DNA from: a virus | Virus record (IMG/VR): IMGVR_UViG_3300039106_000130 | Coordinates: 3,603 to 25,800 of that record | Reading direction: 5' to 3' (one strand) | Length of the DNA stretch: 22,198 nucleotides | In this document: positions 3,451 to 8,591 of the stretch, piece by piece | Numbering within the stretch: the first letter of the stretch is position 1 | How the letters are laid out: each line of letters opens with the position of its first letter | The notes under the pieces: generated by a model | Seen by the model: the letters and a program-made list of their open reading frames with translations, nothing else | Told to the model about the DNA's origin: nothing | The model's database searches: none | Program-made: the position numbers and the translations under genes

Positions 3451-3719
3451 GCAACGTTTTTCAAATTCTTGATGAAGATTATGTTGAAGAACAAGAAGAA
3501 ACAACAGAAGAATGGCGTAAATATTGGAAAGGAATGCCAGAGTTTGTCCAAGAAGATAATCCGCCATATAAAAAAATCATTGTAAGTTTTCGCAATGAAG
3601 AAGACTATGAAGAGTTTGCAAAACTTATTAGTCAAAAGTTAACAGACAAAACTAAGAGTATTTGGTATCCTAAACTTGATATTGATGACAATGCATTGAA
3701 GCGTTGGATTGAAGAATGA
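3447..3719 (+). CDS. Conserved phage hypothetical protein (90 aa, acidic)
   Basis: This is a 90-residue acidic protein with an N-terminal segment rich in glutamate (EEQEETTEEW) and a central motif around WKGMPEFVQEDNPPYKKI, then a region (FRNEEDYEEFAKLI) that looks like a compact alpha/beta fold. I recall similar proteins in marine T4-like phages but know no function for them. The ATG overlaps the deformylase stop (ATGA) and has a GGAG site about 7 bases upstream. Its own stop overlaps the glycosyltransferase start, so it is an internal member of the operon. Confidence 0.85.
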   Translation: MSNVFQILDEDYVEEQEETTEEWRKYWKGMPEFVQEDNPPYKKIIVSFRNEEDYEEFAKLISQKLTDKTKSIWYPKLDIDDNALKRWIEE

Positions 3720-4609
3720 CAAATCCTAATTATCCAATTTACATCCCGTCAAAGGGTCGTTTTGACTCTATGTTGACTTCGAAGTCTTTGACAAGAATGA
3801 AAGTTCCGCACAACATAGTTGTCGAGCCACAAGAGTATGAAGCATATAAACAAGGCGTTGAGAAATTCGACTTAGGTGAATATGCGACTGTTCTACAATT
3901 ACCATTTAGTAATCTTGGACTTGGTTCTTATCCTGCCCGAAACTGGGCATGGGATCATTCAAAAGAAAATGGGCACCTGAAACATTGGTGTGTTGACGAT
4001 AACATTACAGACTTTTATCGACTTAATCGTAATGAACGAATTCGTGTAGAGTCTGGTGTTGTCTTCAAATGTGCAGAAGATTTTGTTGATCGTTTTGAGA
4101 ATGTACCTGTCTCTGGTTTCAACTATAGATTCTTTGTTTCACCACGATCAAAATATCCACCGTATTACCTAAATACAAAAGTGTATTCTTGTATTCTAAT
4201 TCAAAATGATTGTGAACAACGTTGGCGTTTGAAGTATAACGAAGACGTTGACTTGTGCTTGCAAGTGCTAAAAGCAGGTCTTTGCACAATTCAGTTTAAT
4301 GCATTTTTGTCGGGTAAAGCAGCGACACAAACTGTTTCTGGCGGTAATACACAAGAACTATATGGTAAACAAGGCAATGTAAAAGATCCAACTGGCACTT
4401 TAGAAAAATCTAAAATGTTGGTCGAACATCATACTGATGTGGCGAGTCTAGTTTGGCGATATGGTAGAGTTCATCATTTTGTTGATTACCGACCATTCAA
4501 GAAAAATCAATTAATCCTTAAAAAAGATTTTGTGATGCCAGAAGGTGAAAATCAATACGGTATGAAATTAGTCAAAAACTTTACTGTTGCTAAAAAACAA
4601 CAGTCTTGA
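3716..4609 (+). CDS. Putative glycosyltransferase, TET-associated (TAGT) type
   Basis: This looks like a GT-A-fold nucleotide-sugar transferase. The N-terminus YPIYIPSKGR, the DDN acidic motif at residues 94-96 (a DxD equivalent, preceded by HWCV) and the NEDVDLC segment near 175-181 match the TAGT family (TET/JBP-associated glycosyltransferases) as I remember it. That family is inferred to glycosylate modified pyrimidines in phage DNA. No TET/JBP oxygenase or hydroxymethylase gene lies in this window, so a DNA-base substrate is inference; transfer to a protein or host glycan cannot be excluded. The gene is coupled to its upstream neighbour by an ATGA overlap. Its last codons contain one arm-pair of a hairpin and the -35 of the next promoter (its TGA is inside TTGACA). 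Confidence 0.75.
   Translation: MTNPNYPIYIPSKGRFDSMLTSKSLTRMKVPHNIVVEPQEYEAYKQGVEKFDLGEYATVLQLPFSNLGLGSYPARNWAWDHSKENGHLKHWCVDDNITDFYRLNRNERIRVESGVVFKCAEDFVDRFENVPVSGFNYRFFVSPRSKYPPYYLNTKVYSCILIQNDCEQRWRLKYNEDVDLCLQVLKAGLCTIQFNAFLSGKAATQTVSGGNTQELYGKQGNVKDPTGTLEKSKMLVEHHTDVASLVWRYGRVHHFVDYRPFKKNQLILKKDFVMPEGENQYGMKLVKNFTVAKKQQS
4583..4604 (+). repeat. Inverted repeat immediately upstream of the 4606 promoter
   Basis: ACTGTTG (4583-4589) and CAACAGT (4598-4604) form a perfect 7-bp inverted repeat with an 8-base A-rich loop, ending one base before the -35. The downstream arm and -35 (AAAACAACAGTcTTGAC, 4594-4610) recur almost exactly upstream of the 6906 promoter. It lacks a following T-run on this strand, so it is more likely an operator or activator site than a terminator. 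Confidence 0.55.
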
Positions 4610-4634
4610 CAATAGCGGGTGATCCTGTCATAAT
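4606..4634 (+). promoter_or_regulatory. Sigma70-type promoter for the metallopeptidase-VWA gene
   Basis: The -35 TTGACA (4606-4611, perfect) and -10 CATAAT (4629-4634, five of six) are separated by 17 bases. The -35 overlaps the stop codon of the glycosyltransferase gene. The leader to the ATG at 4661 is short and contains a GAGG site at 4650-4653. Recognition by unmodified host polymerase, hence early expression, is inferred. Confidence 0.8.
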
Positions 4635-4660
4635 GTAAAAAACTCAACAGAGGTGTGCAT

Positions 4661-6883
4661 ATGACATTTACCGTCGAACAGAAAAGTCTGCTTGCCAAAC
4701 TGATGGCAACAGAAAACATTCGCGTAGAACATCAGAAGATCAATACTGCGAAATTCGATCCTCAGAATCGAGTGATGTATCTTCCTATTTGGGAAGATAT
4801 GAAAGGTGATCTTTATGATCTTCTGACTGGTCACGAATGTGGTCATGCTCTGTACACTCCTGCAGAAGGTTGGCATGATGCAGTTACCGAACAATCAAAA
4901 GGCAAAAACTACAAAAGCTTCCTAAATGTAGTTGAAGATGCCCGCATCGAAAAGAAAATGCAACGAAAATATCCTGGTCTACGCAAGTCATTCCGACAAG
5001 CGTATGACGGTCTTATGCAACGCAATTTCTTTGGTCTAGATGGTCGTAATGTTAACACTCTTCCGTTTATTGACAAGTTGAATCTTTTCACAAAGAGTCA
5101 GTATTCCATGTCTATGAACTTTACAGAATATGAAGAAACTCTTGTTGAAAAAGTAAAAAATCTTGAATCGTGGGAAGATGTTATCCGCGTAACGGATGAA
5201 ATCTACGCATACTCAAAACAAGAACAACAAGAACTTCTTAATGAAGAAGAAGTCGAAATCGACACTTATGGCTATGAATCAGGCGATGATGATTACGATG
5301 ACGATGATTTCGACTATGAAGAATCTGAAGATGATGACTACGATTCAGAAGAATATGATAATTCTGACGATTCAGAAGATGCTAAAGATGCTAAAGACGG
5401 GAATTCTTCGAATCAAGATTCACTATCATCTAACAATGGTCAGAAAGATTCAAAACCCTACTATGGTGATAAAGAACCAGTTTGCGAAACAGATCAAAAG
5501 TTTCGTGAAAACGAATTCAGTCTGTTAGATAAATCTTGCAAAGAATACGTTTATCTTAGTTTTCCAAAACCAAATATGAAAAATATTATCACACCCGCAA
5601 AACGTGTTCATGAACTTATGTCTGAACATTTTCAAATTCGTGGGTATGATGAAGAAGCAAAAATTCTGGTTGATGAATTTAAACGTAGGAATGATCGCTA
5701 CATTTCTCTTCTTGTAAAAGAATTTGAAATGCGTAAGGCTGCAAAAGCATACGATAAACGTAGAATTTCTGATACGGGTGATATCGATATCAACAAACTA
5801 TCTTCGTACAAATTTGACGATAATATCTTCCGAAAAATGATGAATGTGCCTAAGGGCAAGTCACATGGTCTAGTTCTGCTTCTGGATTATTCTGGTTCAA
5901 TGGACGATAATATGGGTGGTTCGATTGAACAAATTTTGGTTCTTTCCATGTTCTGTCGTAAAGTTAATATTCCGTTCGTTGTGTATTCTTTCGGAAATGC
6001 AATTAATGCTAATATGATTGATAAAAATATTGATCCCGATGAATACAGGGCTCCTCAAATGTTTTCATGTGAACTGAATGAGTTTCGTCTTGAACAAGTG
6101 TTCCTGCGTGAATATCTAAATTCTGATATGTCGAACGCAGAGTTTTCGAATGCTCTTAAAAATATGATTCTTCTGAAAGAATCTTATGCTAAAAGAACTA
6201 TTTCTCGACCAATGTCAGAACAACTGTCGCACACTCCATTGATTGAAGCGATCATTTCAACTGGCTATATCATGAACGATTTTCGTAAAAAACACAATCT
6301 TGATATCACCAATCTAGTGATCGTTCATGATGGCGATGCTGATGCTGTCCGATTCTATCGCGCAGGAGAACAAAAAGTTAACGCCATTCATCCAGCGTCG
6401 CAAAATATCTATGTGCGAGATCGCAAAATTGGATTTGAATATGAAGTCAAAGTTATGGATCGTTTTTCTGAACGAAACGAAGTTCTAAATGCAGCACTAG
6501 AATGGTTTAAATGTTTTACCAATTCTAACATTTTTGGCTTTTTCCTTGTGACGAAATACCGCATTCCAACTGTTGTTCGTGAAAAATATTACTATCAAGA
6601 TGGATCGATGGTTACCACTGGTGGTTATAATGTTGATCGTGAAAAACAAGAAAAACTTACTGCTATCATTCGAAAAGAAAAGTTCATTACCTCATACAAC
6701 AAAGGATACAAAAGTTTCTACTTTATCCTTGGTGGTGAAGAACTTAAAATTGCCGCAGATGAACTGGAAGTGAATGGTAAAGTTACGACAAATAAACTGA
6801 AAAACGCATTTATGAAAATGAATCGTCAGAAGCAAATTAATCGAGTTCTTGTTTCCAAGTTCATTCAAGGTATCGCAGTCTGA
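4661..6883 (+). CDS. Zinc metallopeptidase-like / VWA-domain protein with acidic linker (CobT-like)
   Basis: This is a 740-residue protein in three parts. The N-terminal part carries HECGH at residues 58-62 and a downstream VVEDARIE helix (about 90-97), a pattern expected for a gluzincin-type zinc peptidase with Glu as third ligand. Residues about 195-260 are a highly acidic Asp/Glu/Ser linker. The C-terminal part is a von Willebrand A domain with an intact MIDAS motif, DYSGS at 409-413, and a later HDGDAD. Such proteins are often labelled CobT or peptidase in marine phages. The partner AAA ATPase follows at 6965, as in MoxR-VWA pairs. I chose ATG 4661 because GAGG (4650-4653) is 7 bases away; an in-frame GTG at 4655 is too close to that site. 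There is no CobN, so cobalt chelation is unlikely; substrate unknown. Confidence 0.85.
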   Translation: MTFTVEQKSLLAKLMATENIRVEHQKINTAKFDPQNRVMYLPIWEDMKGDLYDLLTGHECGHALYTPAEGWHDAVTEQSKGKNYKSFLNVVEDARIEKKMQRKYPGLRKSFRQAYDGLMQRNFFGLDGRNVNTLPFIDKLNLFTKSQYSMSMNFTEYEETLVEKVKNLESWEDVIRVTDEIYAYSKQEQQELLNEEEVEIDTYGYESGDDDYDDDDFDYEESEDDDYDSEEYDNSDDSEDAKDAKDGNSSNQDSLSSNNGQKDSKPYYGDKEPVCETDQKFRENEFSLLDKSCKEYVYLSFPKPNMKNIITPAKRVHELMSEHFQIRGYDEEAKILVDEFKRRNDRYISLLVKEFEMRKAAKAYDKRRISDTGDIDINKLSSYKFDDNIFRKMMNVPKGKSHGLVLLLDYSGSMDDNMGGSIEQILVLSMFCRKVNIPFVVYSFGNAINANMIDKNIDPDEYRAPQMFSCELNEFRLEQVFLREYLNSDMSNAEFSNALKNMILLKESYAKRTISRPMSEQLSHTPLIEAIISTGYIMNDFRKKHNLDITNLVIVHDGDADAVRFYRAGEQKVNAIHPASQNIYVRDRKIGFEYEVKVMDRFSERNEVLNAALEWFKCFTNSNIFGFFLVTKYRIPTVVREKYYYQDGSMVTTGGYNVDREKQEKLTAIIRKEKFITSYNKGYKSFYFILGGEELKIAADELEVNGKVTTNKLKNAFMKMNRQKQINRVLVSKFIQGIAV

Positions 6884-6884
6884 T

Positions 6885-6902
6885 TGTTGTTTAAAAACAA
6901 CA
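6885..6902 (+). repeat. Inverted repeat immediately upstream of the 6906 promoter
   Basis: TGTTGTTT (6885-6892) and AAACAACA (6895-6902) form an 8-bp perfect inverted repeat with only two bases between the arms, so it is better read as a protein-binding palindrome than as a hairpin. Its right arm continues into the promoter as AAAACAACAGTaTTGAC (6894-6910), matching 16 of 17 bases upstream of the 4606 promoter. Confidence 0.55.
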
Positions 6903-6905
6903 GTA

Positions 6906-6933
6906 TTGACTTTCTTCCTTGTTATGCTATAAT
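6906..6933 (+). promoter_or_regulatory. Sigma70-type promoter for the AAA ATPase gene
   Basis: The -35 TTGACT (6906-6911, five of six) and a perfect -10 TATAAT (6928-6933) are 16 bases apart, and a TGC directly before the -10 gives an extended -10. Together with the shared upstream element this makes a strong promoter for the gene starting at 6965. Confidence 0.83.
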
Positions 6934-6964
6934 GTATTGTGTTCAATTGAGGAGTAACTAAATT

Positions 6965-8149
6965 ATGAGTAAGCGCATCGAAGTTCGAAACAAATTTCTG
7001 AATGCACTAATTGAAACTGGTAAGAATCAAGTTTCAAAAAATGAAATTGTTGAAGTTTGTGAAAATCTAAAAATTGCAGTACCACAATGGTTCATTAATG
7101 ATAGCAACAATAAAATTTCACGCGGTGTGTATCGAGTACCCAAAGATTTCGCACCTCAAACAGAGGCAATCAGTTTGCAAGCACAGGTGCTACCTATGAA
7201 TCGTCACGTTGAAAAACCACAACATCGTATCAGTAATGTTACGATTGATCTAGAAGAAATCGATCTAGTTCCCAAGTCATATAAAAATTATGTGCCTTTT
7301 GGTAACTTCGAAGATGTTCTTTCTGTCGTAAGTTCTGGTGAATTCTTCCCAGTCTTTATCTCTGGTCATTCTGGCAACGGCAAGACCATGAGCATCGAAC
7401 AAGCCTGTGCTAAGGCTAAACGCAAGTTTGTTTGTGTATCGATGACACCTCAGACAGATGAATCTGATCTTCTTGGCAACTATGTTCTGATCAACGGCAA
7501 CATGGAATGGCGAGATGGTCCAGTCACAACCGCTGCCCGTCAAGGTGCTGTTCTTTGTCTTGATGAAGTTGACTATGGCGCAGAAAATCTATCTGTTCTT
7601 CAGCGAGTGCTTGAGGGTAAGCCTTTCATGCTCAAGAAGAAAGGTGAAATGATTGTTCCCGCACCAGGATTCACGATCTTTGCTACAGCGAACACCAAGG
7701 GTAAAGGTTCTGAAGATGGTCGCTATATGTACACCAACGTTCTGAACGAAGCGTTTCTAGAACGATTCCCAAATACATATGAACAAGATTGGCCACCTAC
7801 TACTGTCGAACGCAAAATCATTAAAAAAGAACTAGACTCAAAGGGCATGAAAGACGATGACTTTGCAGACAAACTAGTTCAATGGGCAGATGTTATTCGA
7901 AAAACATTCAATGATGGTGGCTGTGATGAAGTGATTTCAACTCGCCGTCTTGTACATATCGTTAAGACTTATGCCATTCACAAAGATAAAATTAAATCGA
8001 TTACCAAGTGTCTTAATCGATTTGATCCCGACACTAAAGCAAGTTTCCTTGATCTCTACACCAAAGTAGATGCTGGTGCAAATTTGGACGAACCAGTTAT
8101 TGAGGTAACTTCGCAGCCTGCTGACGCAGGTGAAGAAATTCCGTTCTAA
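6965..8149 (+). CDS. AAA+ ATPase, MoxR/CobS-like
   Basis: This 394-residue ATPase has Walker A GHSGNGKT at residues 134-141, Walker B CLDE ending near 201, a sensor-1-like FATANT, and an arginine-finger region AFLERF. Its N-terminal 60 or so residues form a separate small domain that may be winged-helix-like. It is the type annotated as CobS in marine T4-like phages. CobS and MoxR ATPases work with VWA proteins, and the gene immediately upstream encodes one, so a two-component remodelling machine is the natural reading. The other cobaltochelatase subunits are absent. It has its own promoter rather than overlapping its neighbour, unusual in this window. GAGGAG at 6949-6954 supports the ATG at 6965. 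ATPase call firm; role inferred. Confidence 0.92.
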   Translation: MSKRIEVRNKFLNALIETGKNQVSKNEIVEVCENLKIAVPQWFINDSNNKISRGVYRVPKDFAPQTEAISLQAQVLPMNRHVEKPQHRISNVTIDLEEIDLVPKSYKNYVPFGNFEDVLSVVSSGEFFPVFISGHSGNGKTMSIEQACAKAKRKFVCVSMTPQTDESDLLGNYVLINGNMEWRDGPVTTAARQGAVLCLDEVDYGAENLSVLQRVLEGKPFMLKKKGEMIVPAPGFTIFATANTKGKGSEDGRYMYTNVLNEAFLERFPNTYEQDWPPTTVERKIIKKELDSKGMKDDDFADKLVQWADVIRKTFNDGGCDEVISTRRLVHIVKTYAIHKDKIKSITKCLNRFDPDTKASFLDLYTKVDAGANLDEPVIEVTSQPADAGEEIPF

Positions 8150-8162
8150 TTGAGCGTGAATA

Positions 8163-8200
8163 ATTACCGAAATATGTATTGACAAATGTATTTCGGTAAT
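8163..8200 (+). promoter_or_regulatory. 12-bp palindrome flanking the -35, probable operator
   Basis: ATTACCGAAATA (8163-8174) and TATTTCGGTAAT (8189-8200) are perfect inverted complements separated by 14 bases that contain the -35 TTGACA. The right arm ends one base before the -10. A dimeric protein bound here would cover the core promoter. The small winged-helix protein encoded just downstream is the obvious candidate, suggesting autoregulation (inference). Confidence 0.65.
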
Positions 8201-8207
8201 GTATAAT
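8179..8207 (+). promoter_or_regulatory. Consensus sigma70 promoter for the winged-helix gene
   Basis: A perfect -35 TTGACA (8179-8184) and a perfect -10 TATAAT (8202-8207) are separated by the ideal 17 bases. This is the strongest bacterial-type promoter in the window and implies high early expression unless the surrounding palindrome is occupied. Confidence 0.9.
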
Positions 8208-8249
8208 CTAGACTTCGCTAACGCGATATTTTTTAATATGGAGAAACTT

Positions 8250-8528
8250 ATGAAAAACGCAGTCAAACAAAAAATGGTAAACTATCTATCGAAGACCAAC
8301 GGCCACAACACCTTTACTGTAGCACAAGGTCGCCGTCTGTTCGGTGTCAAGAACGTCGCAGCACGAATTCAAGAACTTCGTGCAGAAGGTTATTCGATCT
8401 ACACCAACACCAAGACCCTAAGCGATGGTCGTAAGGTCACCTACTACAAACTAGGTAAACCATCCCGTCAAGTTATCGCTGCTGGTTATGAAATTCTTCG
8501 CAGCATGGGTATCAAGACCTTCGGTTAA
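8250..8528 (+). CDS. Small winged-helix DNA-binding protein (92 aa)
   Basis: This is a 92-residue basic protein. The segment NTFTVAQGRRLFGV then VAARIQELRAEGYSIYT reads as a helix-turn-helix followed by the wing (DGRKVTYYKLG) of a winged-helix domain. Similar short proteins occur in marine T4-like phages with unknown targets. ATG 8250 is chosen because GGAG (8240-8243) is 6 bases upstream and because earlier in-frame ATGs lie in the promoter or leader. The gene forms a complete unit: consensus promoter with palindromic operator, one gene and a strong terminator. That layout suits an abundant, self-regulated transcription factor. Codon choice looks less AT-rich than its neighbours, consistent with high expression. 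Confidence 0.85.
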   Translation: MKNAVKQKMVNYLSKTNGHNTFTVAQGRRLFGVKNVAARIQELRAEGYSIYTNTKTLSDGRKVTYYKLGKPSRQVIAAGYEILRSMGIKTFG

Positions 8529-8560
8529 TTTACCAAAGATTTAGCTTAAATTACGGTACC

Positions 8561-8591
8561 GAGGTTATACATAATGTATAACCTCTTTTTT
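8561..8591 (+). terminator. Strong intrinsic terminator
   Basis: GAGGTTATAC (8561-8570) and GTATAACCTC (8576-8585) form a perfect 10-bp stem with a 5-base ATAAT loop, followed directly by six T (8586-8591). It ends the winged-helix transcription unit and insulates the downstream operon. Confidence 0.95.

Follow-up and report, generated by a model that had tools for sequence, protein, structure and literature searches.

Two adjoining genes in a viral DNA stretch of 22,198 nucleotides (hereafter the window, meaning the whole stretch that was analyzed) encode a VWA protein that, judged from its sequence, probably carries a zinc protease, and a CobS-like ATPase of the MoxR class. We propose, with a probability of roughly one half, that the two proteins form a remodelling machine resembling CobST and NorQD and equipped with a probable zinc protease, and that this machine acts in early-to-middle infection and not in cobalt insertion. 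We infer the formation of a complex, the binding of zinc and proteolysis, as well as the timing and the target. The pair is common to many marine and freshwater T4-like phages, in which it is usually filed under the vitamin B12 genes.

The gene pair and its genomic setting

The source record is a 25.8-kb virus fragment whose replication and recombination genes (gp46/47, clamp, gp44 and polymerase) are of the T4 type, and the features of the pair are listed in Table 1. The VWA gene starts at ATG 4661 and stops at 6883; the ORF list gives GTG 4655 instead, but the AGAGG in front of ATG 4661 makes the latter more likely. The first-pass annotation had begun the feature at 4583, which falls within the 3' end of the gene before the VWA gene. 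Its description of an otherwise overlapping operon agrees with the overlaps seen among the neighboring genes of the window. A TET-associated glycosyltransferase (PF20691) is encoded directly upstream of the VWA gene, at 3716-4609, and hints at modified DNA bases. Among the close relatives with enough flanking DNA, gp46 and deformylase genes were upstream of the pair in 35/35 and the clamp gene was downstream in 34/34. The position between gp46 and clamp/gp44, i.e., in the replication block, is therefore conserved, and the same gene block occurs in annotated cyanophages and in pelagiphage HTVC008M. PADLOC gave no match on the locus, and therefore no known defence system was recognized there.

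Table 1. Features of the VWA/ATPase gene pair (window positions).
Feature	Position	Strand	Basis or remark
Putative zincin-VWA protein, 740 aa	4661..6883	+	PHROG 459 'peptidase' (E 3.5e-174)
N-terminal gluzincin-like domain (predicted)	4661..5275	+	conservation, model, profile and structure searches
HECGH, residues 58-62	4832-4846	+	motif in N-terminal domain
Third-ligand candidate E92 in VVEDARIE	4934-4936	+	alignment, model
Acidic linker, about residues 195-270	5243..5470	+	predicted disordered
Helix-hairpin 'finger' candidate ahead of MIDAS, about residues 330-408	5648..5884	+	among the most conserved segments
VWA domain and C-terminal part	5885..6880	+	MIDAS D409 S411 S413, T525, D557
CobS-like MoxR-class AAA+ ATPase, 394 aa	6965..8149	+	PHROG 249 'CobS/porphyrin biosynthesis' (E 7.3e-102)
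Sigma-70-type promoter TTGACA-17-CATAAT, VWA gene	4606..4634	+	11/12, TG before -10
Sigma-70-type promoter TTGACT-16-TATAAT, ATPase gene	6906..6933	+	11/12, TG before -10

The ATPase contains an intact Walker A (GHSGNGKT), Walker B (DE) and Arg finger, all of which are invariant in 20 aligned sequences. It also matched Pfam AAA_5 and CbbQ_C, and midasin, CobS, CbbQ and NorQ in the PDB, so that its earlier description as a CobS-like MoxR-type ATPase beside the VWA protein was confirmed. Its N-terminal extension of ~65 residues (window 6965-7160) has no Pfam match and is helix-turn-helix-like in some relatives.

We also surveyed the co-occurrence of the two genes. In IMG/VR, the ATPase gene follows the VWA gene in 77 of 80 loci, and the other three contigs stop in or at the VWA gene; the two genes are thus side by side wherever adjacency could be tested (77/77). 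When all 207 fetched loci of the VWA gene were considered, the ATPase gene was at most 1 kb away in 178 and within 5 kb in 8 more, 18 loci ended within 1.5 kb, and only 3 had longer DNA and no ATPase gene. This regular adjacency of a MoxR-class ATPase and a VWA protein with a complete MIDAS is what is expected of the two-gene machine suggested in the first-pass annotation. The VWA protein was found by tblastn in 463 phage records, among them 365 of Synechococcus, 61 of 'Cyanophage' and 24 of Prochlorococcus, and the ATPase gave the same counts for these names, i.e., 450 cyanophage records per gene. Staphylococcus phage ATPases obtained by tblastn were rejected as candidates; the single large neighbor gene checked there has neither HExxH nor the MIDAS DxSGS. 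A 188-kb T4-like phage contig (L176) bearing the pair is present in the isolate assembly of Nonlabens xiamenensis, which points to Bacteroidota as possible hosts of some phages in this group. The architecture is thus less new than had been implied: it is a core pair of T4-like cyanophages that a published paper already calls CobST, and a parallel metallopeptidase-VWA/MoxR pair (DUF2201) has already been described in jumbo phages.

Next, we analyzed the promoters. A match of at least 9.5/12 precedes the VWA gene in 80% (n=128) and the ATPase gene in 86% (n=135) of the relatives, whereas random segments reach this score in 8% of cases and the regions upstream of other ORFs in 21%. The late motif ATAAATA was found upstream in merely about 1.5% of relatives. 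The claim that the pair has its own early-type promoters therefore stands as far as conserved sigma-70-type sites at both genes are concerned, but such sites do not prove early transcription. Promoter type and position in the replication block are circumstantial on this point and do not show that the pair acts early or that its target is a host protein, and the genes of the pair are not named in the published transcriptomes searched. Downstream of the pair, the window (8179-8585) also contains a perfect TTGACA-17-TATAAT promoter, a small winged-helix gene (likely start 8251) and an 11-pair terminator-like hairpin; this promoter-driven gene (8251-8528) is not conserved among relatives.

The N-terminal domain of the VWA protein and its relation to CobT

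In an alignment of 53 VWA-protein sequences, in which the relatives are 29-55% identical to the window protein, H58, E59, H62, N89, E92, D93 and R95 were invariant, as were the MIDAS residues. This bears out the arrangement first described for this protein, namely a zinc-peptidase motif and an intact MIDAS VWA domain joined by an acidic linker. Shuffled copies of the protein contained HExxH in 1.2% of cases and HExxH with a correctly spaced ED.R in 0.01%. Given this rarity and the invariance across the 53 sequences, the motif goes beyond chance. The conserved segment ahead of the MIDAS may, by analogy, be likened to the finger of NorD.

In the model of the N-terminal domain (pLDDT 86), one helix (49-65) contains HECGH and a second (84-103) contains E92. 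This is the arrangement of a gluzincin, in which HExxH on one predicted helix is combined with a downstream glutamate on a second, and all of these residues are invariant here. A Foldseek search of the domain against the PDB gave zincins at all of ranks 1-14 (selecase, ArdC, PprI/IrrE, jannalysin, abylysin, BlaR1 and M61), led by selecase-type minigluzincins, but with weak E-values of 0.25 or worse. Members of the domain gave no significant zincin-family match in Pfam, and a Pfam search with the VWA protein assigned no family. PDB sequence-profile searches with the whole protein, the N-terminal domain or the C-terminal part gave chance or acidic-repeat matches only. In a structure search with the full-protein model, NorD VWA domains bound to NorQ were among the top PDB matches. 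Structure prediction had been suggested as a check on the placing of HECGH as a zinc site, and the predicted domain resembles a zincin in its model and, with the weak E-values given above, in the Foldseek search. Neither result that would have spoken against the first-pass annotation, a predicted structure with HECGH out of place or a lack of co-occurrence of the two genes, was obtained. In zincins, the glutamate at the E59 position is the catalytic base and not a metal ligand. E59 is strictly conserved, and catalysis is therefore favored; the domain may bind zinc and cut protein.

We then compared the domain with CobT. Profile comparison with the N-terminal domain of RHEph10-type phage CobT gave a match of 97.9% (E 5.5e-13), in which HECGH pairs with HEVAH and VEDARIE with VEDTMIE. 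The VWA/finger part matched the same phage proteins at 98.8%, and the VWA domain of the RHEph10-type proteins matched that of cellular CobT at 100%. Direct profile comparison of the N-terminal domain with cellular CobT was weak (19%, E 1.2e-3), and this link is drawn through the RHEph10-type proteins, of which 11/17 matched the Pfam CobT N-terminal family. In a joint alignment, the phage HExxH faces a DAYAL-type sequence in cellular CobT, whereas the E-x-x-R-x-E glutamate is kept. HExxH is present in 53/53 window-family proteins and 17/17 RHEph10-type CobT-like proteins, but in 0/19 cellular CobT; CobT-like proteins of Gordonia and Vibrio phages have it as well. On this comparison, cellular CobT has a degenerate copy of the same predicted domain, with the zinc-protease site lost. 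Cyanophage cobT has been described as mistakenly annotated as peptidase (Liu et al. 2021, PMC8651126). As far as can be read from the sequences, that statement is half right, because the protein is a CobT relative, yet has kept a complete zinc-protease motif.

CobT-like VWA proteins related to a Vibrio form also turned up among plasmids, in about 1,000 records, of which 901 are conjugative; a plasmid search with the window VWA protein itself gave no direct match. Two examples (L238, 5013-6809; L239, 4998-7175) have HExxH and N[VI].ED.RIE and lie beside a DUF3150 gene. IncC plasmid VWA proteins carry the full signature HEAAH...NVLEDCRIE, and in the IncC E. coli plasmid, one of the two examples, the VWA gene also adjoins ssb, bet and exonuclease genes.

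Proposed mode of action and alternative explanations

By analogy with NorQD, CobST and midasin, the pair would probably work as a MoxR/CobS-type AAA+ ring with a VWA adaptor. The ring would receive the VWA domain, with the finger entering its pore, and ATP-driven movement and the MIDAS would grip and strain a client protein. The zincin, if live, could then cut this gripped client or else the adaptor's own linker. Possible clients are proteins of the host, proteins of the phage and the adaptor itself, and the machine would act close to replication and recombination during the early-to-middle phase. This proposal is based on the correspondence between the parts of the phage pair and those of NorQD, and on the NorD VWA domain as a top PDB match. 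Given that the HExxH...E site is intact where that of CobT is degenerate, we consider remodelling with zinc-dependent cleavage to be most likely, and the published alternatives, virion assembly and hijacking of host CobN, fit less well.

A role in virion assembly has been proposed for a MoxR-vWA-metallopeptidase pair of jumbo phages, with an archaeal-virus MoxR-VWA precedent (Iyer et al. 2021, PMC7824862). Applied to our pair, this would mean a chaperone with a maturation protease that assembles and clips structural proteins, and maturation cleavage would suit a gluzincin. However, the jumbo-phage pair belongs to another family (DUF2201_N+DUF2201) with an unmatched N-terminal domain and represents a parallel system. 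In addition, the replication-block position of our genes and their sigma-70-type promoters, with the late motif almost never present, argue circumstantially against a structural role, and we regard this explanation as unlikely.

The pair might also be a metal chaperone without proteolysis, in which a metal bound at the HExxH...E site is passed on to a client metalloenzyme, much as iron is by NorQD. CobST is likewise a metal-inserting MoxR-VWA pair. The metal insertion by well-studied MoxR-VWA pairs (NorQD, PMC13036017) and the intact site speak for this explanation, but we consider it rather improbable, because E59 is strictly conserved although it is no metal ligand in zincins, and because the metal-inserting cellular CobT does without the site.

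It has further been proposed that such pairs are viral CobST subunits that join host CobN so that more cobalamin is made (Liu et al. 2021, PMC8651126). The ATPase is indeed homologous to CobS (NCBIfam TIGR01650, E 1.2e-21) and the VWA protein, via other phage proteins, to CobT; moreover, the Prochlorococcus and Synechococcus genomes tested have cobN, so that hijacking is possible in these hosts of cyanophages. However, the scores are far below the equivalog cut-offs (77 bits against 558.55 for CobS and 12.2 bits against 759.05 for CobT), and the phage proteins keep the HExxH that cellular CobT lacks. CobN was not found in the 10 viral records tested and occurs in just 2 of 50,697 phage records, and cobN was found in 0/20 genomes of Nonlabens, the genus whose isolate assembly contains the pair. 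A CobN partner is thus neither supplied by these phages nor always by the host, and we consider this explanation quite improbable. The low scores, the related phages without CobN and the host genus without cobN also uphold the view of the first-pass annotation that the cobaltochelatase label does not fit; its statement that CobN is missing holds for the viral records tested, while the 25.8-kb fragment cannot tell for the source phage itself. Finally, a plain remodelling chaperone in which HExxH persists as a structural relic is very improbable: CobT shows that the domain can persist after site loss, but H58, E59, H62 and E92 are invariant in the family and the matching residues are kept in the distant RHEph10-type family.

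We tentatively extend the remodelling-protease proposal, at somewhat less than even odds, as follows. The N-terminal domain of CobT may be a dead zincin whose live counterpart would be found in phages and conjugative plasmids, as part of a widespread family of AAA+/VWA zinc-protease machines that have been misfiled as B12 genes. During replication takeover, these machines would act on a protein of the host or the phage, by cleavage or by remodelling. In marine virus ecology, cobS and cobT are included among the auxiliary metabolic genes and taken as a sign that phages control B12. Should the two genes encode a protease-chaperone machine, such counts would be misleading, and this for a core gene pair found in very abundant phages.

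Comparison with known systems

CobS/CobT of the aerobic cobaltochelatase shares with the phage pair an AAA+ ATPase, an acidic-linker VWA protein, a homologous VWA/finger part and a degenerate homolog of the N-terminal domain, but differs in the lost HExxH, in the equivalog scores and in the CobN that the phages lack. The RHEph10-type phage CobT (PHROG 1576) and the IncC-plasmid VWA proteins have the HExxH...N[VI].ED..IE signature and a VWA domain, and RHEph10-type phages also have a CobS-like neighbor; nevertheless, these are distant, profile-found relatives in other phages and plasmids, and the plasmid forms lie beside a DUF3150 gene. The jumbo-phage Atu_ph07 pair (ASV44728/ASV44729) also combines a metallopeptidase-like domain fused to VWA with an adjacent MoxR-class ATPase, but it is of the DUF2201_N+DUF2201 family and its N-terminal domain has no detectable match to ours. 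DUF2201 (COG3864-type; PF13203/PF09967) was accordingly rejected as the family of our protein, which showed neither a Pfam match nor a profile match to ASV44728. The latter (L243, 42257-43543) has HQILH at the expected place of HExxH and may therefore be inactive.

Midasin/Rea1, which is among the PDB sequence matches of the ATPase, has an AAA+ ring, an acidic linker and a MIDAS, but is one giant eukaryotic ribosome-assembly protein without a zincin. In the NorQD structures, the VWA finger is threaded into the AAA+ pore, with an additional contact by the C-terminus, and the linker is twisted and stretched, which strains the client (PMC13036017). NorQ/NorD and CbbQ/CbbO share with the phage pair a MoxR ring and a partner made of N-terminal domain, linker, finger and VWA domain, and differ from it in that their client is a metalloenzyme encoded alongside.
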